From: Mesaphorura yosii
Taxonomy: Eukaryota; Arthropoda; Collembola; Poduromorpha; Tullbergiidae
Length of the DNA: 64,000 nt
Assembly (NCBI GenBank): GCA_009869945.1
Contig: WIXG01000292.1
Coordinates: 1 to 64,000 of the forward strand
Reading direction: 5' to 3'
In this document: positions 7,500 to 35,511 of the stretch, one piece after another
How positions within the stretch are numbered: position 1 is the stretch's first letter
How the letters are laid out: each line of letters begins with the position of its first letter
The notes under the pieces: generated by a model
What the model was told of the DNA's origin: nothing
Databases searched by the model: none
What the model saw: the letters and a program-made list of their open reading frames with translations, nothing else
Made by a program: the position numbers and the translations under genes

Positions 7500-9326
7500 A
7501 TGGATTTTAAGGCTCTGCTTGGGGCCCTTTGGGTACTGGCAACCTTCTTTACTGAGATGTCTGTCTCACAATCGAACCCAATTCCACTGTGCGTAAATTC
7601 TGAACATTGATTCACCTCTGAGTGCAATTTATTTGGAATCTGTCGTCCTTTTTGCAGTCCCAGTCCCATCGCATACACTTCGTATCAACTTGGCCCGGTC
7701 TGTCAACCGGCCAGCTCCATTTTGACTCCTGCGACTACTGGCGAGCTGGTTTCCCTCGTGCAGCAAGCTCTGGCGACAAACACGACGATTAAAGCATTCG
7801 GACACCGGCACTCGGCGACTGACATCATTTGCACCGGCGGCACTCCCATCGACATGCGCGGCTTCAAAGTGATGTCCTTCAACTCCACTGACCAGACAGC
7901 CACATTCGGCGCTGGCGTCTACCTCCGTGACGCCTGTGATTTCATGAAGACTTACGGCCGAGGACTGCGAACAACACCCGGCTTTGGTGGCATCACAATT
8001 GGTGGAGCCATAGGCACTGGAGCCCATGGATCCTCGATAAAATGGACGTCCAGCATTTCTGAGCAGGTGGTCGGAGTCACGATTGTGGATGGACTGGGAA
8101 ATGTGCAACATTTAACAGCAGAAGACGACCTCCACGCGTTCCGGATTCATTTGGGCTTGCTCGGCTTCGTTGTAAACGTGACGCTTTCCACCGTTCCAAT
8201 CTACAAAGTCACAGCACACAATTATATCGTGTCCGATAGCATTCTGACGGACCAAACGGTCATCAGCATGGCGGAGAACACGGATCAAATATCGCTATAT
8301 TGGTTCCCTTCTGCGGGACAGGTCGTGGTGGCGAACTGGACGATTGTGGACATATCCACTCCCGGAGACGCTCAAACGTTCGATCACGTACCATCCACGT
8401 CCACATCGTTCAACATTTACGCCACTAAATTGCTGGAGCTGGCTCAATCACTGAATTCATACGACATTCTCAACTTGTTGCAAGCCTACATTCAGAATAC
8501 GCTCGTAGCTCAGGATCCGGACTTTGTGCCAATTTATACGGAGAACGGATTAACGGTTGAGAATCCGGCGACAGGCCTCTATCATCTCATGTTTGCGCCA
8601 ATCTGCAACGAGTCCGGCTGGCTGCAGTGTCCGTGGCTCCACGGCCCAAACAACATCTCCTTCCTCGACAACGAGATTGGCATCGATCTTGCAAACCTTC
8701 CTGCCTTTGTAACTGCTGCTAAACAAATTTTGACACAATCACCCGCTGCCTTTGCGCTTCAAGGAATCCTGATCCGGTTCTCCGGGGCTTCAGCTTCTTA
8801 CATGAGCACGGCGTACGGAGCAAACACAGCCCACGTGGAGTGGTATACATTGAAACGAGATGACCCGTACAATAATCCGAGCACAGGCATCGCAGCGTAC
8901 CAGGCCATGATGCAAACTTTGGTCAGCGATTTCGGCGGACGGAGTCATTGGGGCAAATCGGGACTTTACTACCACAGTGAACGCGTGCTCGCCCAGAAGC
9001 TCAGCCAAACTGCCAAGCAGGCGTTTGTAGACAAGATGAAGAAATACGATCCGAACGGAGTTTTCCTGAACGACTTTGGACGTCGATTGCTCGGAACTGG
9101 AACCAAAGTCGACACGGACCCACTCACGAAGCACTGCGCACTGCTGGACAACTGCATTTGCTCAAAGAACTCAGATTGCGCCAACGGACAAGTTTGTGGG
9201 ACACTAAACTCGTTCCTGGTCTGCCAGACTCCGACGTTGCTTCCGGTAATTCTGACTCCACCGCCACCACTCCCATTCCCATCGATTCTTGCGTGGATAA
9301 AAAGTATCACCGGGATCCTGGGCTGA
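7500..9326 (+). CDS. secreted L-gulonolactone-oxidase-like FAD enzyme, copy 1
   Basis: Exon 1 is 7500-7588 (signal peptide, MDFKALLGALWVLATFF) and exon 2 is 7658-9326; the product is about 585 residues. The N-terminal half is an FAD-binding type 4 (VAO/PCMH) domain. FGHRHSATDII carries the histidine that links FAD covalently in gulonolactone and aldonolactone oxidases, and GGITIGGAIGTGAHGSS is the pyrophosphate-binding loop. The C-terminal half has the HWGKSGLYYH motif of the aldonolactone oxidase domain. The protein is longer than cytosolic or ER gulonolactone oxidases (about 440 residues). A conserved Cys-rich tail (CALLDNCIC...C...C...C) and a proline/hydrophobic end are added. A likely role is oxidation of a sugar or sugar lactone outside the cell; the substrate cannot be read from the sequence. 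An aataaa lies at about 9345. A convergent paralogue follows. Confidence 0.85.
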
Positions 9327-10452: not shown

Positions 10453-12295
10453 TCATCCAAACAGTCCCACGACCCATTTCAGGAAGTCGACGAGGGACGG
10501 TGTAGGAGACGGAAAAGGAAGCGAAAACAGTTCTCTCACGTAGGTCTTCAGCGTGTCACAGACTGGAAATGATTGCAGCATAGTGCAGACTTGCTCCGGG
10601 GCGCAGTCAATGTCGCGGGAGCACACACAATTGTCCAGAAGAGCACAATGGCGTGTGAACGGGTCGAGATTGATTCTGGTGCCCACACCAAGCAACCGGA
10701 GCCCAAAGTCGTTGAGGAAGACTCCGTAAGGATCGTACTGACGCATTTTGCGAAGGAATCGGGCTCGAGTGTGCGGGTGAAACTTCTGGGCGAGAATGGG
10801 TGTGCTGTGGTAGTAGAAGCCTGATTTTCCCCAGTGCGATCGACCGTCGTACTTATTCACCATGGTCTGCATAATGGCCTGGTACGCCGCAATTCCGGTA
10901 CTGGCCGTTCCGTATGCATCTTTCCTCCGTCCGGTGTACCATTCCACGTGCACCGTGTCTCGTCCGTGCGAATTGTCCATCAGAGTGGTTGACCGCCCGG
11001 AAAATCGGAGCAGAATGCCTTGAAGAGGAAAAACTGCCGGTGACTGGTTCAGAATTGCTTTGGTCGACAGCACAAAGCTGGTGAGATCATCCAGTGCGAT
11101 GCTGGCTTCATTGTCGAGGAAGGTGAGGTTGTTGGGTCCGTGCAGCCAGGGACACTGGAACCAGCCGCTCTCACTGCAAATGGGCGCAAACATGAGGTGG
11201 TAGATGCCCACGGCCGGATTCTGCACATTCAGACCGTCTTCTGTGTAGATCGGTACGAAGTCGGGCACCTTTTCCAGGAGCGACTTCTTGGAGAATGCCT
11301 GGAGAATATTCAGTAAGTGAATAGCGTTTGTGGACTGCATGATCTCCATGGCGTTGGATGCAAAGAAATTGTAGGTCTTTGACGTGGATGGTACGTGATC
11401 GTTTGTGAACGCATTTCCGGGAGTGAACACATCCACGATAGTCCAGTTAGCGACCACCACCTGCCCCGACGAAGGAAACCAGTACAGCGACATTTGATCC
11501 ACTTGTCGCGCCATTGCCACGGCGAGCCCATTCGTGAGAATGTCGTCGTTCACAAGGTAATTGTGGGCCAGGACTTTATACAGAGGTGAAGTGGCAAGCG
11601 TGACACTGACGATGATGCCCAACAACCCCAAATGCACTCGGAATGCCTGTAAATCTGACTCTCTCGTAATCACGCGCACTCGCCCCAGCCCGTCCACCAC
11701 CGTCAGACCCACGACCTGCGACGACATGCTCGAACTGTGTCGCACTGACGACCCGTGCGCACCTGTCCCGATGGCGCCTCCGATTGTGATTTTCCCGTAC
11801 CCCGGTGTCGTACGGAATGCACGACCGTAGAGTTGTGCGAAGCTGCAGACGTCTCTAAGGAAGGCTCCTGCCCCGACAGTCACCGTCTGATCCACTTCAT
11901 TGTATTTCATCGCTCGAAATCGCCGCATGTCGACCGGGATTCCGTTCGTACAAATGATGTCGGTCGCCGAGTGTCGGCTGCCGAATGCTTTGACTGTTGT
12001 GTGACGCGCCAACGCTTCGTGCACGATTGCGACCAGTTCGGACAGCGTGCTGGGCGTTCGAATTGGTTCTGAGGGAGTGCAAACAGGGCCCAGCTGGTAA
12101 GCTCCGTAAGCGTGTGGTGCTGTTCTGCAAAATATTACCGTACGCAGATTAGTATTAGATTAGATTTGAGCTCGTCATCAAATAAGGCTCACTCGACCAT
12201 ACTTACAAGAGCGGGTCGGGCGTCATTGACCAACATGTCGTCCACACGCACAAATCCAAGACTACAAGCACCAGTCCAAGGTAGGCTCCCTTCAT
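10453..12295 (-). CDS. secreted L-gulonolactone-oxidase-like FAD enzyme, copy 2
   Basis: Exon 1 is 12295-12207 and encodes a signal peptide (MKGAYLGLVLVVLDLCVW). Exon 2 is 12124-10453. Exon 1 is 89 nt and ends in phase 2, exactly as in copy 1, so the intron is ancestral to the duplication. The product is about 586 residues. It keeps the FAD histidine (FGSRHSATDII), the loop ITIGGAIGTGAHGSS, HWGKSGFYYH and the Cys-rich tail (CALLDNCVC...), ending WVVGLFG. The two copies are clearly related along their whole length and face each other tail to tail. This fits an inverted duplication. Function as for copy 1: probably an extracellular sugar or lactone oxidase; substrate unknown. Confidence 0.85.
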
Positions 12296-24024: not shown

Positions 24025-26715
24025 TTAAAATTCCACAATGACGGTGCTTCCTGCCCACGGGGCTCCCGGGAGTTCCACCGGAATCTCTGTAACTCCACCT
24101 TGAGCAGTTGAGACAGTGACTTTGGCCTGAGTTTCGGTTTGAGTTGGGTCAGAAACAGCCATCGTCCAGCCTGCACCGTCTGGCTTACGACGTAGCAAAA
24201 TGAGAACAGGAATGTCCACATCCACTGCCACCACATCATCCAATCCAGTTGCATAGTATCCCGGCTCCCAAAATGCGAGTCCAATCAGACGCTCCCCGTT
24301 TCCACTTGAACTTCCATACGTTGCGCCCCGAACTACGACCAAAGGATCAGCTCGACTTGATAGAGCGCCGCTTTGTGCTGAGCTTAGCAATTGGATTGGC
24401 TCAGTGGCGGCTGTCTTTGTTCTTCCACCGGTACGGGCGACTTGTTCGAAGAGTGACTGATCAATGTCGAGATAAGCAATGTAGGCAAGATGATCTGCAT
24501 TGTGAACTCCAGCCGGGTGGTGCACTGTAGCCGAGAAGAGTATTTGCGGTTCAAATCCGTCTGAGATGCCAATCGCTGACCAATTCGTTGGCCGCACCCT
24601 CGTGTCAATTGTAACATTCGCGAGAGAGTTGAGGAACGTGTAGCCAACGCGATCGTGCCAAACACTCTGGACGTTGGTATTGATTATTTCGGAATCTACA
24701 AGTCCCCCATCGACGAAGACAGAGCCGGCGAGTTGTCGTTGGTCGAGCGTCGTGATGACTGGGGCCGAGGCGTTGCGTGGAATAACATCACCCACAAATT
24801 GAACAACGTACGCTCCAGGGAAGAAGAAGAACGCCTTGCCCCAAGAGAGAGAGCCAGTCAATGGATTTGTGTAGTTCATGACGGCCACCGCAGCGTGCCC
24901 GTTCGTGACTCCACCGACAAAGCGTTCTCGTCCGGTGTAGGTCACTTGTCCGCAATTGAGGGGTGTTGCGCGATAGTCCGTCGTAGTGCCGGGAATTAGA
25001 TTCCAGTCCCACGAGCCGTAGACGTTGACGTACTCTGAGCCATCCAAGAACGTGTAAATTGTCCCATCGCTCAAGTGGAAACCAAACGGATTCTGCGCAT
25101 TGTTGCACTCCGAATTGGCCGTGCGAGTCGAAAACATTTTCAGCACCACGATGTAATTCTGAGCACGATGAACCTTTTTAAAATGTGAGAAAATTTTCGT
25201 TTCAGATTATTCATGTCATAAGCATTTACAACTCGCAGTTTTCACAATTATTTCGTTATGGCTTACAAGATAGTCTGACGTGTGGAAGAATTTCGTGCCC
25301 AGCAGTGGACCAGCGTTGACCAGTGTTCCCATGTCATTCACAGCGTCGACGTTCCTGAGGCGGTCCACAATCTCGACGAACTTTGCATGATTTGCCCACG
25401 TCTTGGTACCTTCGACGATTTGATTCAGGTTCAAGCCCACGCCGTGCCAGTCCTCATGCTTGTGAGAGACCATGCGCCCAATGACGGGGTACTGCCAGAT
25501 GAGTTTTCGCTCCGCGTCACGCACAAACATGAACCACTCGCTACCTTCGATGACGGTGAGGAAGGCTTCCTGGGTTGAGACCGGAGGGACAATGGTCGTG
25601 TTTTCTGTATGCATGAAGAGCCGAAGCATCGCAGACATAAAAACTCCGCCGTAATTTCCGTTGTAGATTTGGCGCTGGTGCTGGAAAAATGTACCATCCA
25701 CTTTTATCCCGTCTTGACCTCCAGAAGTGATCTGGCACTCATCAAAGTAGCGCCCGTGCGCTTCGTCGAGTAATTCTGGATCTTTTGAGAGAAGAGCGAG
25801 GGTCACAGCGTTGGACGAAATGTCGAGCATATTGGCACCGGTTTGTGGACCCCAAGAACCGTTCGGGTCACCGTCGACGCGGGCATAAGATCGGGCTATT
25901 TGTTCAGTGCAGTTTCCATACTGGGTGGGCGTCAGGCTGTCGTGAAGAACGAGGCACGCCATGCTGATCAATGTTGGCATCAGAATCATCTACACAATGG
26001 AAAAAATGTTTCTTCAGTATTTTACCTTTAGAAGAGTTATTAAATTGTGAACATTTATTACCTGGCAGTACCAGTTTGTGTTCCAGAAGCCAGGAGTACC
26101 ACATGGACAATTGTAATTGTCAGAGCCACCTGCATTGATGCAGTCGTAGTTCGGGTAATCGTTGTCGAACCAGTAATTCATGGCTGCACTGATTTTGTTT
26201 CGCATGTCCGTATCGGTCGGATTTTGCGCCCAATAACTGGCCATCGTTACTGAAAAATAGCAAATCATACATAAAACCTCAATTTCTCATAAATTTAATT
26301 AATGAAGTGAATGAAGCCTCAGGTTACTAATTTTGTGGAAATGATCCTGGGCGGGCCAGTTAGCTCTTCGTGCTGGGCATCCAGTCGTATAGTCCACGTC
26401 TGTCCAGACTCCGGGTGGTATCAAAGAGTCACGCCTGAAGCAAAACAGAATGATCAAGGAATACAGAATTTAAACTAAGCTGAACTTACTGTAGAGTCTT
26501 TATAATAAATCCTAGCGACTAAATCGAGACTGTAAAGCGTAAAGATCTTACAATTCCAGGGCAAGACTCGGATTGTTGTACGACCGCATTACTTCCTCTC
26601 GCCTACGCTCCAAAATCAGTCTCATGTCTTCTTCTGTGGGCAGGGCCGACGACGGCAGTGCCAGAAAACAGTACATGGCTAACGAGAGCCAGCTAAAATG
26701 CCGCTTGGAACTCAT
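24025..26715 (-). CDS. secreted polysaccharide lyase family 8 enzyme
   Basis: Five exons: 26715-26552, 26434-26328, 26249-26062, 25989-25267 and 25173-24025; 776 residues, the usual size of PL8 lyases. A signal peptide (MSSKRHFSWLSLAMYCFLAL) leads. PL8 features in order: GANMLDIS (Asn about 206), VDGTFFQHQ (His about 257), NGNYGGVF (Tyr about 266), VIGRMVSH (Arg about 325), SDYLVHRAQNY...MFSTR, and SWDWNLIPGTT. These match the Asn-His-Tyr-Arg catalytic set and the 'W.w..iPGTT' signature of hyaluronate, chondroitin AC and xanthan lyases. It should cleave uronic-acid polysaccharides by beta-elimination outside the cell; the exact substrate is open. PL8 enzymes are mainly bacterial and fungal. 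The gene has four spliceosomal introns and animal neighbours, so it looks like an old horizontal acquisition. Confidence 0.87.
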
Positions 26716-30155: not shown

Positions 30156-31407
30156 ATGAACTCCAAATCATGCATCACGTGCTTCTTAGTGCTTACAATC
30201 TCGAGCGTGATCGTCTGTGTCTTAATTTGGAGCCTCGATGGGCTGAATTACGGCTACGAGTCACACATCGTGATTGAGGTAAGCGTCAATGATATTCTAT
30301 TTGTGCTCGATTCAGATAGCCGGACACCGAAGTCTTGGCTACTTTCGTTTCCAAGCACGCAGAAGACTTAGACGTCATATTTCTCATTATATTGTTTTCC
30401 AGTCGCTTACAGACTCGACGCTGGTGAAGCCAGGCAATAATACTCAACATCGACCGGCTCCTATTCCTCCCGTTGCTATTGAATTTCCAATTCCAAGCGT
30501 CATTCTCGCCGGGACTTCCGGAGGGATCGGGAACCAGCTCTTCAAGTACGCGTTCGCCTACGCTCTGTCGAGGCAGCTGAATGCCAGTCTGTTTATCAAA
30601 TTCAAGAGGCAGGGCAATCGAAGTTTTGGACCGGGTGAACGAGCCTTCGTCTTGGATCAGTTCAATCTGAACGAAACGTGGTTCAAGTACGTCAACGCGG
30701 ACACCAAGCTGCCCATCCACGACGTGACGACGTTGACTGAACCGGACTTCTTTGAGAAACGCATTCCGACCGACAAAATTCTGGTGCTCAACGATTACTG
30801 GGAGTCTGAGATATTCTTCAGGCCGTACGTCGACGAAATTGTTCATCAGTACCGAATGAAACTCAATCTCAGTCACGACGAAACGTACCGTCTTATTCAG
30901 TCGACGGAGAGCGTCGCAGTGCATTTCCGCATCGGCGACTTCGATGGGAAGACGAAAGGCAACAATCGCGTGCTGCCCCTCTCATACCAGCTGCGGGCGA
31001 TGGATCTGGCCCGTTCTCTGATCACAAAGGAGCTCACCTTCTTCGTCTTCTCCGACGCCATGAAGTTCGTCCGCTCAGAAATGCAGAAACACAACGTGTC
31101 CGTTGGCAGCCAGCGGATCGTGTTTGTGTCTAACTCGAGTCTGACGAGCATCGAGGAGTTTTACTTGATGCGGGCCTGCAAGCACATCATCACGCCCAAC
31201 AGCTCATTCAGCTGGTGGGCAGCGTATCTCAATTCGAACCCGGAGAAGACTGTCATTGTGCCGTACCCCAGAAACCGTCCTGAATTTTTCGAGAGGTACA
31301 AGAAGGGCGAGATGCAGAAGTACAAGCGATTCCTCGACCAGAATTTTCTCTACCCCGCTGGGGCCGGGTGGATTACACTGGATCCCTTCGTCGGCGGAAA
31401 CAAATGA
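30156..31407 (+). CDS. alpha-1,2-fucosyltransferase-like (GT11), copy 1
   Basis: Exon 1 is 30156-30278 and exon 2 is 30403-31407; 375 residues. This is a type II Golgi protein with a short cytoplasmic start and an anchor helix (CFLVLTISSVIVCVLIWSL), a stem, then the catalytic domain. GT11 signatures: GGIGNQLFKYAFAYALSRQL at the start of the domain, HFRIGDF (the family's H.RRgD donor-binding motif, second Arg replaced by Ile), and RACKHIITPNSSFSWWAAYL. It should transfer L-fucose from GDP-fucose in alpha-1,2 linkage to galactose-type acceptors. A tandem paralogue starts about 640 bp downstream and a family 10 fucosyltransferase lies beyond it. An aataaa-type signal is at about 31440. Confidence 0.88.
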
Positions 31408-32044
31408 TGATTCGATTTTGCTATCATATCGATATAATTAATAAACCACCAATAAATTGGGGCGTATTTTCATACTGGGATTTCCGCATTATTTATTGAC
31501 CTCTTTGTGTACTCAACTGTTGAGCTCTGCTTCGTACGTACGGTCAGGATGAGTTAATATAAGTAAAAGTAACGATAAAACACGTTCATCTACAAACGAT
31601 TAACGATACGTCAGTCTTACTCGGTTTGTAGAAGGTTTGCCCGGAAGGCGACGTACCCCAGTTTCGATACCTGGAATAGCTGCCCTGTTTTTGTACATTT
31701 CCATATTCTTATCGTACCTCCAATCAACATATGATTCTATCTGTAAAATACTTGCTCACAAAACTCTAACCCCACATCCTTGTGCCAAATTTTATTGCCC
31801 ACACACTCATACGCATACGCATTTATTGCATATGTGTACATGAATATTCATTCTCTCTGTGCATGACTTTGGTATAACAGAATGACGTCATCGAGGAAAC
31901 TTGCCCGGCTATAGTCGGCTAGCTCTTATCTCACCATTACTCATTTCACTGAACGGAGATTAGATTAAATCCTCAATGGCCATTATTCATTGTTCTTCGT
32001 ATCGGCATCGACACCAGCCTGCCCAACATTCGTTGGACAGCACG
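31408..32044. other. intergenic region between tandem fucosyltransferases
   Basis: About 640 bp. A short B-box-like stretch (agtttcgatacctgg, about 31660) stands alone. A run of cacacactcatacgcatacgc-type repeats occurs near 31800. No exon is seen. The promoter of copy 2 must lie here. Confidence 0.4.
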
Positions 32045-33228
32045 ATGAAATTGAGAGCCGCTGTGTCTTTTCTCCTGGCACTAACTTTTGTCAGCGTGGT
32101 GTGCCTCGTGGTGTGGAGTGACCAAGGAGCAGGCGACAGCCAGAGAACGGAAATCGAGGTCAATGTGCTTTACGTGAGTTGTGAATTTATAATCATGAAC
32201 CATTACATGCGTCTAGACGCAATTACATTTTCTATTTCCTCTCTTAGGACCTCAAATCCTCGCCAAAGCAATCAAAACAGACACCCACGACCGCCACGAA
32301 ATCCGGCAGATTCCCGATCCCGAGCGTGATTCTGACAGGGGCCACGAATGGAATTGGAAACCAGCTCTTCAAGTACGCGTTTGGCTACGCACTATCCAGA
32401 CAGTTGAACGCCAGCCTGTTCATCAATTTCAAGAGGCCTGAGAAGCGGAAATTCAGCGCCGGCGAACGAACCTTCGTCTTGGACCAGTTCAAGCTGGACG
32501 AGTCCAAGGTGACGTATATGCGGAAAGACGAGCCGCTTCCTCCTCGTCGCGTCGTGCATGTGAACGAGGTCGACTACTTTGAGAATCGCATTCCAAATGA
32601 CAAAGTCATCGTGCTGGACGATTTTTGGGTGTCGGAGAAGTTCTTCCAACCGTACGCGAAGGAGATTATGGCCCAATATGAGATGAAAGTCGACTTCAGT
32701 GACACTGAAATCTATCGGCAGATCAGCTCCACAGAGAGCGTGGCCGTTCACTTCCGCATTGGCGACTTTGACGGGAAGACGGCGGGCAACAACCGAGTGC
32801 TGCCGTTCTCGTACCACGTACGGGCGATGGAGCTGGCGCAGACTCTGATCTCACAAAACCTGACGTTCTTCGTATTCTCGGATGACATCAAGTACGTCAA
32901 GGACAAGATGAAGAAGCACTTGCCTTCGTTCGAAGGACGAGTTTTCTTTGTGTCCAATTCCAGCACGAACAGCATCCAAGAGTTTTACCTGATGCGGGCC
33001 TGTAAACATACGATCGTCCCCAACAGCACGTTCAGCTGGTGGGCAGCGTACCTCAACGCAAATCCGAATAAGGTCATCATCGCTCCGTATCCAAGAAACC
33101 GCCCGGAATTCTACGAGAGGTACAAGAATTCGGATACGAAGAAGTACAAGAAGCTGCTGAGCGAGAAATTCTCGTACCCGGCCGACTGGGTGACGCTCGA
33201 CCCGTTCATCGATGAAGTATCTAGTTAA
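32045..33228 (+). CDS. alpha-1,2-fucosyltransferase-like (GT11), copy 2
   Basis: Exon 1 is 32045-32173 and exon 2 is 32248-33228; 369 residues. The start was chosen because MKLRAAVSFLLALTFVSVV gives an anchor helix at the same place as in copy 1; an in-frame ATG at 31976 exists upstream. The donor TTTAC|gtgagt is better than the in-frame alternative GAG|gtcaat 18 bp earlier. Catalytic motifs match copy 1: NGIGNQLFKYAFGYALSRQL, HFRIGDFDGKT and RACKHTIVPNSTFSWWAAYL. The paralogues share the intron position and most of the catalytic domain, so this is a local tandem duplication. Predicted role: GDP-fucose-dependent alpha-1,2 fucosylation in the Golgi. Confidence 0.87.
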
Positions 33229-33758
33229 CATTTTTTCTATGTGATATTTGCTAACATCCGAGCTCTTATAATGCTCTTGGAGTTATTCTTGCTTGCTTGC
33301 CTGTGACACTACTCCTCCGAAACTACTTAATGTTTTAAAAAACGGTTTTCATGCCCGACATGGCCAGGCGGTGTTATCGCGCTATATTGGGTGGTGCCCC
33401 GACCCAATGTTGACAATTCATTCTCGCCGGTCACTCAGTGACCAGCCGTTTTAGCTTGTGATTAATAAGATGAATATTGAAAAAAGTTCATTCGTCTTGC
33501 ATCATGCATCAATGCTTGTATTTTTAACTTCTTCCCATGCGTTATGATAAGAGCTACCTTGGTTATAATCGGGTTCATTCGCAATTTGCATGAAGAATGG
33601 CATGTGCAGATTAATTCTCCCAATTTCTCTTAGCTTATTTACTTAAATGCTGGCGAGTAAGTTATGCACATCCGATTACCGACGGACCTCTTTAATGTAA
33701 CTACAAATGTACAAAAACTCAGTAATGCGAGAAGTTTTCGATGGTGGCGTGGTGAGGC
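33229..33758. other. intergenic region between convergent fucosyltransferases
   Basis: About 530 bp. The stretch 33355-33440 has an A-box-like tggccaggcgg and GC-rich hairpin halves (attgggtggtgccccgaccc) but no B box, so a tRNA-derived remnant is only a suspicion. The 3' ends of the GT11 and GT10 genes face each other here. Confidence 0.35.
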
Positions 33759-35511
33759 CTATTTGCTTGAGTTCCACATCCACTTGTTCTTACTTAAGCA
33801 AATTGGGGATTTGTCGTTCAACTCTTCGTTGGGCTCCCAGTCGATTTCGTTGTCTGCCGTGGGTGATGGCTCCGGTGTCTGCTCTGCGTAGTGGAGCATC
33901 GGGCACAATCTGCAGAGAAAGGAGGGGTTCTCCACAAATTCACCGGTGTTCCGCCAGGCAAAGTACGAATTGTAGAGGGTCGCGTTCGAGGCGAGCAGTT
34001 GCACGTACTCGGCCAACTCTTTCGGAGATTCAAAGTCTTCCACGTGAATGTGCGAGTTTTGGGGCGCCAGAGTGTGGTAATCGTCCTGCCGGGCTCCCAT
34101 CACAATGGGAACGAGGTTATTGCTCAGTGCATGGCGAAAAAACACATGTGAGATGTACTCTCGGCAGTTGACCTTCTCAAACGCCAAGTAGAAGAGGTAC
34201 TCGGGACCAATTTTCGCCGCACACTTTGTCTCGCTTGTGCATATCCGCCGAAACTCCTCTTTCTCTGCACACCGGCCATAGACATCGACGGACACGAACT
34301 CCTGAAGCGCCTTCACGTATCCCAGGCGATTGTTCCATGCCTTACAATTCGGAACGTAGACAGCGATCATTTTCGTCCTTCCAGCGGTGTAATCTCGTTC
34401 TGTACACAAATTTTTTGTGAAATTCATATCTCTTGGCAATGGCGTATCCTGCTTTTGCTCACCTTGAGATTTCGACCTCACGTCAGGGTCGTAATAGACC
34501 CATTTTGCGTGCTTGCGTGGAATCAGAGACTGACTCCAGTATGTGTTGATGTACTGGGCCGGTCTGTCAAGATGAAGGCGACGTATGAGCGGAGGCTCGG
34601 CCGAGTATTTGTACCAGGGAATTTCAAACGGAGGGCTCGGCTCGAAATTCGGAATCGGGTCCTCGTCCTCGTATGACGCGATGGCATCAGTCGGCGTCTC
34701 GGCCCAATCTTGCGGGAGTGCAGACACGAGGTCGCACCGAGGCTGAAACTCCTTTATGTGAGGAGCGAGCAGACTGTCGAAGCAGCCAACGAGTTGCTTC
34801 TGCTGTCGAGATTGTTTAGAGAGCGCCCATACTGGCCAGGGCTTGAAGCTACCGAGAAAGATTGATTTGTTCTGAAAGAGAAACAATCCAATTCGCATCT
34901 TTAATAAAATAAGAATCCATTCTTCAACTGATCGATTCTATTACGTGATTATGTTTCGCCTTCGCCTTATCGTCGCGACCACCATGTGATCTGATAAAGA
35001 ACTGAATGATGAGCTGCATCGTCCACACCAGTTGACCCACAATGCGATCATCACTGGGAGAAGCGAAGTCTTGATTTCCCCACAACTCGTAGGCGCTGAA
35101 GTTGAAGAATGTCGGCGGGTCGTCTCGCCAGGCTGGTTGTTGTCTCTTCAGCCACGATTTTAGTTCCCAGTACTTTAGTATCAGCTTACGTTCGATGTCG
35201 CTGGCTGTGAACTGCTTTCCACGCTCTTGCAGCAGGTAAAATTTGTTAATCAGTGTTCCATCGTCGTGCACATTTCCATCACCCAGGAATGCTTCTTTAT
35301 GAAACGGGTCCGGTTCTTCAGAGCCCAGAATCGTGTACTCCGCGTCGTAAGATTCCTGAACAGAATCTCGAACTTCACTGAAGAACGACTGAAATGTTTG
35401 AGTCGCATACTGACTTCGACCACCCACGTAACAAACACTGAACACGGCGGCAGCGCACAGGAGCAAAAGGAGGAGCAGGATCACTCTTCTTCGTCTTTTG
35501 TATCTTCCCAT
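33759..35511 (-). CDS. alpha-1,3-fucosyltransferase-like (GT10)
   Basis: Exons 35511-34945, 34871-34463 and 34399-33759; 538 residues, longer than most GT10 enzymes (350-450). It begins MGRYKRRRR, then an anchor helix (VILLLLLLLCAAAVFSVCYV) and a long stem. The GT10 domain shows VPNCKAWNNRLGYVKAL, VSVDVYGRC, LFYLAFEKVNCREYIS and VPIVMGARQDDY, with YNSYFAWR near the end. The family's strongly conserved FENS..DYITEK reads F-E-K-V-N-C-R-E-Y-I-S-H-V here, so the Thr-Glu-Lys used for donor contact is lost and activity or specificity may be altered. The intron 34400-34462 is 63 bp, a multiple of three without stops. Predicted Golgi type II enzyme using GDP-fucose. Confidence 0.82.

Follow-up and report, generated by a model that had tools for sequence, protein, structure and literature searches.

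A native polysaccharide lyase family 8 gene of fungal type in the genome of the arthropod Mesaphorura yosii

A polysaccharide lyase family 8 (PL8) gene occupies positions 24025 to 26715, on the minus strand, of a 64,000-nucleotide stretch of Mesaphorura yosii DNA (contig WIXG01000292.1; hereafter the window), within a genome assembly of 93.0 Mb and 1127 contigs. Spliceosomal introns and arthropod flanking genes mark it as native to the nuclear genome of an arthropod. The reading we favor, with a rough probability of 0.62, is that this native gene encodes a probably secreted PL8 enzyme of the fungal type for use on microbial or algal uronans, and that it descends from an old fungus-to-arthropod transfer, which would have been followed by duplication and by the gain or loss of introns. 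Both the donor and the direction of this transfer are what we infer from sequence comparisons. In the literature, PL8 figures as a family found nearly always in bacteria, to which a small branch from fungi is added (PMC7911691).

When the gene was rebuilt from the window, its five exons joined into a protein of 776 amino acids, and the ends, the length, and the four introns agreed exactly with those given in a preliminary description of this DNA. Splice sites were chosen by inspection and homology, all four introns are of the GT-AG type, and the codon positions of the catalytic residues were derived by hand from the exon table. An AATAAA overlaps the final base of the stop codon. The hydrophobic N-terminus, judged by eye, suggests that the protein is probably secreted. 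The parts of the gene are as follows:

26552..26715, minus strand: exon 1, with the ATG at 26715, the hydrophobic N-terminus, codons 1 to part of 55, and the donor GTAAGATC
26435..26551, minus strand: intron 1, 117 bp, phase 2, GT-AG
26328..26434, minus strand: exon 2, with the motif C-x-ARR-x-NWPAQDH; Cys74 at 26379-26377
26250..26327, minus strand: intron 2, 78 bp, phase 1, GT-AG
26062..26249, minus strand: exon 3, with the fungal/animal-type cysteine insert DCINAGG...CPCGTPGFWN; Cys127 to Cys140 at 26142-26101
25990..26061, minus strand: intron 3, 72 bp, phase 0, GT-AG
25267..25989, minus strand: exon 4, the catalytic alpha-domain; N206 at 25833-25831, H257 at 25680-25678, Y266 at 25653-25651, R325 at 25476-25474, H329 at 25464-25462
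25174..25266, minus strand: intron 4, 93 bp, phase 0, GT-AG
24025..25173, minus strand: exon 5, the super-sandwich and C-terminal beta domains; E416 at 25110-25108, PGTT at 24993-24982, stop codon

The window protein matches three Pfam models, all above their cut-offs and far beyond what chance would give (Lyase_8, 219 bits, E 9.7e-65; Lyase_8_N, 71.5 bits; Lyase_8_C, 25.6 bits), and it has the three-domain PL8 architecture of an N-terminal alpha domain, a central super-sandwich, and a C-terminal beta domain. Its closest solved relative is 7r2x (E 3.7e-113), whose record title in Foldseek names the PL8 mannuronate-specific alginate lyase of Paradendryphiella salina (PsMan8A); second comes the best bacterial structure, chondroitinase AC 1hm2 (E 3.5e-35). 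For the residue comparison, the window protein was aligned to 81 bacterial rows, of which 80 are GTDB loci and one is the 1hm2 fragment. The catalytic Asn/His/Tyr/Arg set and the PGTT signature claimed in the preliminary description are present in this alignment: N206 corresponds to Asn in 79 of the 81 rows, H257 to His in 80, and Y266 and R325 to the same residues in every row, with PGTT at residues 455-458. At the position of E416, the bacterial rows have Glu (74/81) or Asp (7/81). The window protein departs from the bacterial set in one place: a second Arg nearby, at position 329 and present in 78 of the bacterial rows, is replaced by His, as it also is in PsMan8A; a paralogue on contig C364 has Trp there. 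A structural model of exon 2 of this paralogue (mean pLDDT 82.1), built from an alignment that combined 17 bacterial rows with two of the window gene's exons taken singly, ranked PL8 structures first in Foldseek, with 7r2x as the top match (TMq 0.83, E 2.3e-39).

By its sequence, the window gene belongs to the fungal-type PL8 branch and not to the bacterial branch, because it shares a clade with PsMan8A and carries cysteine inserts that occur in none of the 81 bacterial rows. Cys74, Cys127, Cys138, and Cys140 are present in all three eukaryotic rows (window, C364, and PsMan8A), in columns where all 81 bacterial rows have gaps; Cys165 and Cys180 are also common to the window protein and PsMan8A. 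Local BLASTP gave 35.9% identity between the window protein and PsMan8A over 610 columns, and 24.3-25.8% between the window protein and its five best-scoring bacterial rows. An IQ-TREE phylogeny was built from 39 rows: the window protein, the C364 paralogue, a 594-residue stretch of PsMan8A, and 36 bacterial sequences (1hm2 and 35 of the 80 loci). The two animal sequences form a pair (support 100/98), and the pair joins PsMan8A (100/100), with the 36 bacterial rows all outside. A constraint placing the animal pair within an 11-row, planctomycete-rich group, picked after the tree had been seen, was rejected (p-AU 1.2e-7). The preliminary description, which proposed such a phylogeny as a check, had treated PL8 as a mostly bacterial and fungal family; the tree, the identities, and the inserts refine this to the fungal-type branch, and a place on the bacterial branch was not borne out. 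By its affinity to PsMan8A, the window protein would fall within CAZy subfamily PL8_4.

The bacterial comparison set came from two GTDB scans, both of which reach only genomes containing the short patterns used. Patterns specific to the animal/fungal branch matched 93 stretches, none of them a relative, and with patterns that also fit chondroitinase AC, 256 of 501 matched stretches encode relatives. The best 80 of these 256 were kept and all were compared; their identity to the window protein was 22-27% (tblastn), and the highest listed identity to any bacterial row, 28%, was that of the C364 paralogue. Among viral contigs, 39 stretches matched and no relative was found, and plasmid matches occurred in 14 records at 23-27% identity. 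A bacterial donor was considered, and these searches do not point to one. As a separate observation within the bacteria, the actinobacterial PL8 of L058, a Williamsia sp. metagenome-assembled genome, groups with that of a member of the Prolixibacteraceae (100/100), which may reflect either a gene passed from one bacterial phylum to another or a contig binned wrongly.

The paralogue on contig C364 is a second full PL8 gene, encoding 778 amino acids with one 82-bp intron, and is 49.6% identical to the window protein (BLASTP). The introns of the window gene fall at alignment columns 62, 98, 168, and 421 and that of the paralogue at column 84; since no position is held in common, introns would have been gained or lost after the duplication. 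The PsMan8A gene is also reported to have several introns (PMC7911691), and introns alone are therefore no proof of long residence in the animal. By the Nei-Gojobori method, the proportions of synonymous (pS) and nonsynonymous (pN) differences between the two PL8 genes are 0.763 and 0.342 over 763 codons. The same method was applied to the four GH88-like genes described below, giving pS 0.631 and pN 0.158 over 393 codons for the pair on contig C207 and pS 0.65-0.75 and pN 0.29-0.40 for the other five pairs. Synonymous change that is saturated or nearly so, with lower amino-acid change in each pair, fits old, conserved, working genes; because of this saturation, no exact selection ratio is possible. 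The saturated synonymous change and the unshared intron positions uphold the earlier suggestion that the gene is old, and the divergence of the paralogues fits purifying selection on the PL8 copies. A third PL8 piece, at 1997-2221 of contig C397 (L027), covers residues 703-776 only, with no other PL8 exons matched on that contig; it looks, by eye, like a remnant with an apparent frame change and was not counted as a gene.

Candidate partners for PL8 were found elsewhere in the genome, in the form of four GH88-like genes and one gene with the polysaccharide-lyase domain PF14099:

L003 5383-6646 (contig C364), minus strand: GH88-like gene, start codon at about 6646, one intron, divergent from the second PL8 gene (start 7497)
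Contig C207 52985-54220 (L023/L024), minus strand: GH88-like gene, head-to-head with the plus-strand copy
Contig C207 54961-56194 (L023/L024), plus strand: GH88-like gene, 74% identical to the minus-strand copy
Contig C596: one further GH88-like gene, by match to the C364 protein
L136 1465-2421 (contig C417, about 16.3-17.2 kb), minus strand: PF14099 polysaccharide-lyase gene, apparently single-exon, with a trypsin-type neighbor

On C364, the start codons of the GH88-like and PL8 genes lie about 0.85 kb apart, head-to-head. The best solved relative of this GH88-like protein is the GH88 structure 3wiw (E 6.5e-60), and the three further genes match it over most of its length. In each of the four an intron sits at roughly the same position, with two splice choices possible in one copy; in a tree with 23 bacterial rows the four group together (100/99). 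Their neighborhoods are animal: laminin and ANKLE2-type stretches lie beside the C364 gene, and an ionotropic-receptor-type stretch lies a few kilobases from the C207 pair; the stretch beside the C596 gene gave a weaker match, below cut-off. The plus-strand C207 copy scores above the Pfam Glyco_hydro_88 cut-off (44.9 bits) and the minus-strand stretch below it (23.8 bits). The C417 gene reaches 32.7 bits with PF14099 (cut-off, 29.9), and none of the solved structures matched its protein at E 1 or better. Its best plasmid match, 36.8% identical, comes from the alga-associated Catenovulum adriaticum, where the neighborhood holds GH88, kduI, and an alginate-lyase-family gene (uronate degradation). 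A search of the genome for PL7 (PF08787) gave no match and is uninformative, as the control genomes gave none either.

In PL8 enzymes, Asn and Arg neutralize the uronate carboxylate, and His and Tyr handle the C5 proton and the leaving oxygen. In the window protein, Asn206 and the Arg would thus be predicted to neutralize the carboxylate, with His257/Tyr266 taking the C5 proton and protonating the leaving oxygen. The ensuing beta-elimination would break a chain of 1,4-linked uronic acids, whose new end would carry an unsaturated residue that GH88-type enzymes of the same animal could remove. The sole known activity of GH88, according to PMC11468063, is the hydrolysis of oligosaccharides bearing unsaturated uronic acid. 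In bacteria, a GH88 match occurs in the flanks (up to 5 kb on each side) of 15 of the 80 PL8 loci, and in 26 of the 34 PL8-bearing genomes searched (representing 34 of the 80 loci), three of these matches being weak (E 2e-6 to 6e-4). Given these bacterial neighbors, the PL8-GH88 pair on C364 suggests joint use. A bolder, tentative extension, which we would sooner doubt than assert, is an animal-encoded uronan pathway forming a scattered analogue of a bacterial polysaccharide-utilization locus: the PF14099 lyase on C417 might act as first cutter, followed by the two PL8_4 and four GH88-type enzymes. The head-to-head PL8/GH88 pair might then be the remnant of a cluster transferred together, probably from a fungus, that opened algal, fungal, or bacterial-slime uronic-acid polymers as food.

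To our knowledge, PsMan8A is the only characterized member of the fungal-type PL8 branch. It is reported to act on polymannuronate and to be inactive toward chondroitin AC, chondroitin B, and hyaluronic acid (PMC7911691). A polymannuronate-type specificity (EC 4.2.2.26, as for PsMan8A) would be assigned to the window enzyme by analogy. Alginate seems no likelier than a mixed or glucuronan-type polymer, because a polymannuronate-specific exo-enzyme would yield monomers and need no GH88. The substrate would be an algal, fungal, or bacterial uronic-acid polysaccharide eaten as food (polymannuronate, glucuronan, or a similar mucilage) and not the animal's own matrix. Algae, fungal walls, and bacterial slime fit better as food than animal matrix does because the closest characterized enzyme ignores chondroitin and hyaluronan, and for the same reason the action on matrix polysaccharides raised in the preliminary description is not supported. 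A role as a glycosaminoglycan lyase, like the chondroitin AC or hyaluronate lyases, with the matrix of the animal itself or of its prey as target, therefore seems distinctly unlikely. It would fit with 1hm2 being the second solved relative and with chondroitinase-AC being the best NCBIfam match, but that match (164.7 bits) falls far short of its 1000-bit cut-off, and the hyaluronate lyase model (86.3 bits) falls short of its 1350-bit cut-off; His329, where 78 of the 81 bacterial rows have Arg, also argues against it.

Several points weigh against the fungal-transfer reading and its GH88 partnership. The eukaryotes in the tree are one fungal and two animal sequences, so the tree gives neither donor nor direction of transfer and does not set transfer apart from vertical descent. 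The PsMan8A branch is long (1.38 changes per column), 14 of the 39 rows were flagged for odd letter make-up, and L063 was flagged as long. The C364 GH88-like protein scores 20.8 bits against the Pfam cut-off of 26.6 and matched no NCBIfam model, and a genome search with the Pfam GH88 model returned the two C207 copies only, one of them above cut-off. None of the GH88-like genes shares a contig with the window PL8 gene, and since their identity to bacterial GH88 reaches 44%, they may have come from elsewhere than PL8 did. The two PL8 copies may also differ in substrate, since Trp replaces His329 in the C364 paralogue.

Other histories of the gene were considered against the same evidence. Vertical inheritance, with PL8_4 in an early opisthokont, kept in some fungi and a few arthropods and lost elsewhere, would likewise bring the animal and fungal sequences, with their common inserts, into one clade against the 36 bacterial rows, and the introns and paralogues do indicate long residence; we consider it unlikely, as it would imply many losses across animals. 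Independent transfers into fungi and into arthropods, with an unsampled bacterial lineage as donor, would be in keeping with a mostly bacterial family, with 256 of the 501 GTDB pattern matches being relatives, and with the identity of up to 44% between the genome's GH88 and bacterial GH88. This scenario is nonetheless improbable given that the animal/fungal-branch patterns returned no relative from GTDB, that the 80 kept loci are at most 27% identical to the window protein (best listed, 28% to the paralogue), and that the cysteine inserts are lacking from all 81 bacterial rows. A transfer in reverse, from arthropods into fungi such as insect-associated Hypocreales, would suit a topology without direction and the naming of Tolypocladium and Metarhizium sequences as the closest relatives of PsMan8A, but the fungal clade is described as large (PMC7911691); we regard this direction as very improbable. 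As for an assembly chimera or fungal contamination, we found no point in its support and give it next to no weight. The window contig carries chemosensory receptors and other animal genes, laminin and ANKLE2-type stretches lie beside the second copy, the genome has 66 cuticle-protein matches, and the window gene has four GT-AG introns. The chimeric contig that the preliminary description had named as a possible refutation is unlikely, because the gene has introns and arthropod neighbors and another contig holds a second copy among animal genes. An old transfer of PL8 from a fungus, followed by duplication, remains the history we prefer.

The host is an arthropod, as the chemosensory receptors and cuticle-protein matches show. 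Ten window stretches scanned with Pfam include a lipase, Nup88, two 7tm_7 chemosensory receptors, two GT11, and one GT10; for the stretches scanned, the earlier remark that the gene sits between typical animal genes holds, and introns and flanking genes likewise confirm that this animal genome has a native, intact PL8 gene. Chitin_bind_4 (cuticle protein) has 66 matches in the genome, all above cut-off, and 13 of them are clustered on contig C314. Two long frames in the window, at 7611-9323 (plus strand) and 10456-12159 (minus strand), encode FAD-linked sugar-lactone oxidases (FAD_binding_4 and ALO), and the two GT11 and one GT10 fucosyltransferase frames are clustered at 30283-34937.

The transfer of carbohydrate-active enzymes into soil arthropods is already well known (PMC5490193). 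Among the matches listed in the open-licence full-text literature, as represented by titles, the starts of abstracts, and term counts, there was no report of PL8 in an animal, and the first 100 BLASTP matches that PMC7911691 gives for PsMan8A are all from fungi. The main text of a compendium of animal transfers (PMC13342648) contains neither "polysaccharide" nor "PL8," and that of a 2026 survey of arthropod fusions (PMC13389597) does not contain "lyase." What is unusual here is the set of candidate partners, GH88-like and PF14099 genes, that the genome carries in addition to PL8. If the proposed function is correct, some arthropods would make the enzymes for both steps of uronan breakdown themselves and would not leave it to gut microbes. 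The animal copies also allow the function of the fungal PL8 branch, which is largely uncharacterized, to be studied outside fungi.

Compared with known systems, the window protein is nearest to PsMan8A (CAZy PL8_4, exo-polymannuronate lyase, PDB 7r2x), with which it is homologous over most of its length. The two share the Asn/His/Tyr/Arg/Glu residues, GRxVSH, PGTT, and six cysteines, four of them in the inserts absent from the bacterial rows; their lengths are similar (776 and 786 amino acids, the latter from PMC7911691), and both genes have introns. Unlike PsMan8A, to which its protein is 36% identical, the window gene has an arthropod host and is one of two full copies in its genome, one of which has a GH88-like neighbor. 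The bacterial PL8 enzymes (chondroitinase AC 1hm2 and the hyaluronate, xanthan, and chondroitin ABC lyases) have the same three-domain architecture and core catalytic residues; they differ in their low identity (22-27% for the 80 kept loci), in the Arg at position 329 (78/81), and in the absence of the cysteine inserts. Folsomia candida offers a parallel in that foreign-type carbohydrate-degrading genes have settled in an arthropod genome, with CAZy domains reported in 229 of 809 candidate foreign genes (PMC5490193). Of two Folsomia papers searched, neither yielded GH88 and the second did not yield PL8; in the first (PMC5490193), PL8 was not itself searched for, and "polysaccharide lyase" occurs once, as a category. 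Finally, the C364 GH88-like gene matches the solved GH88 unsaturated glucuronyl hydrolases (3wiw, 2zzr, and 1vd5), and the genome's GH88-like genes differ from bacterial GH88 in forming their own clade, in having an intron at nearly one position throughout, and in their animal host.
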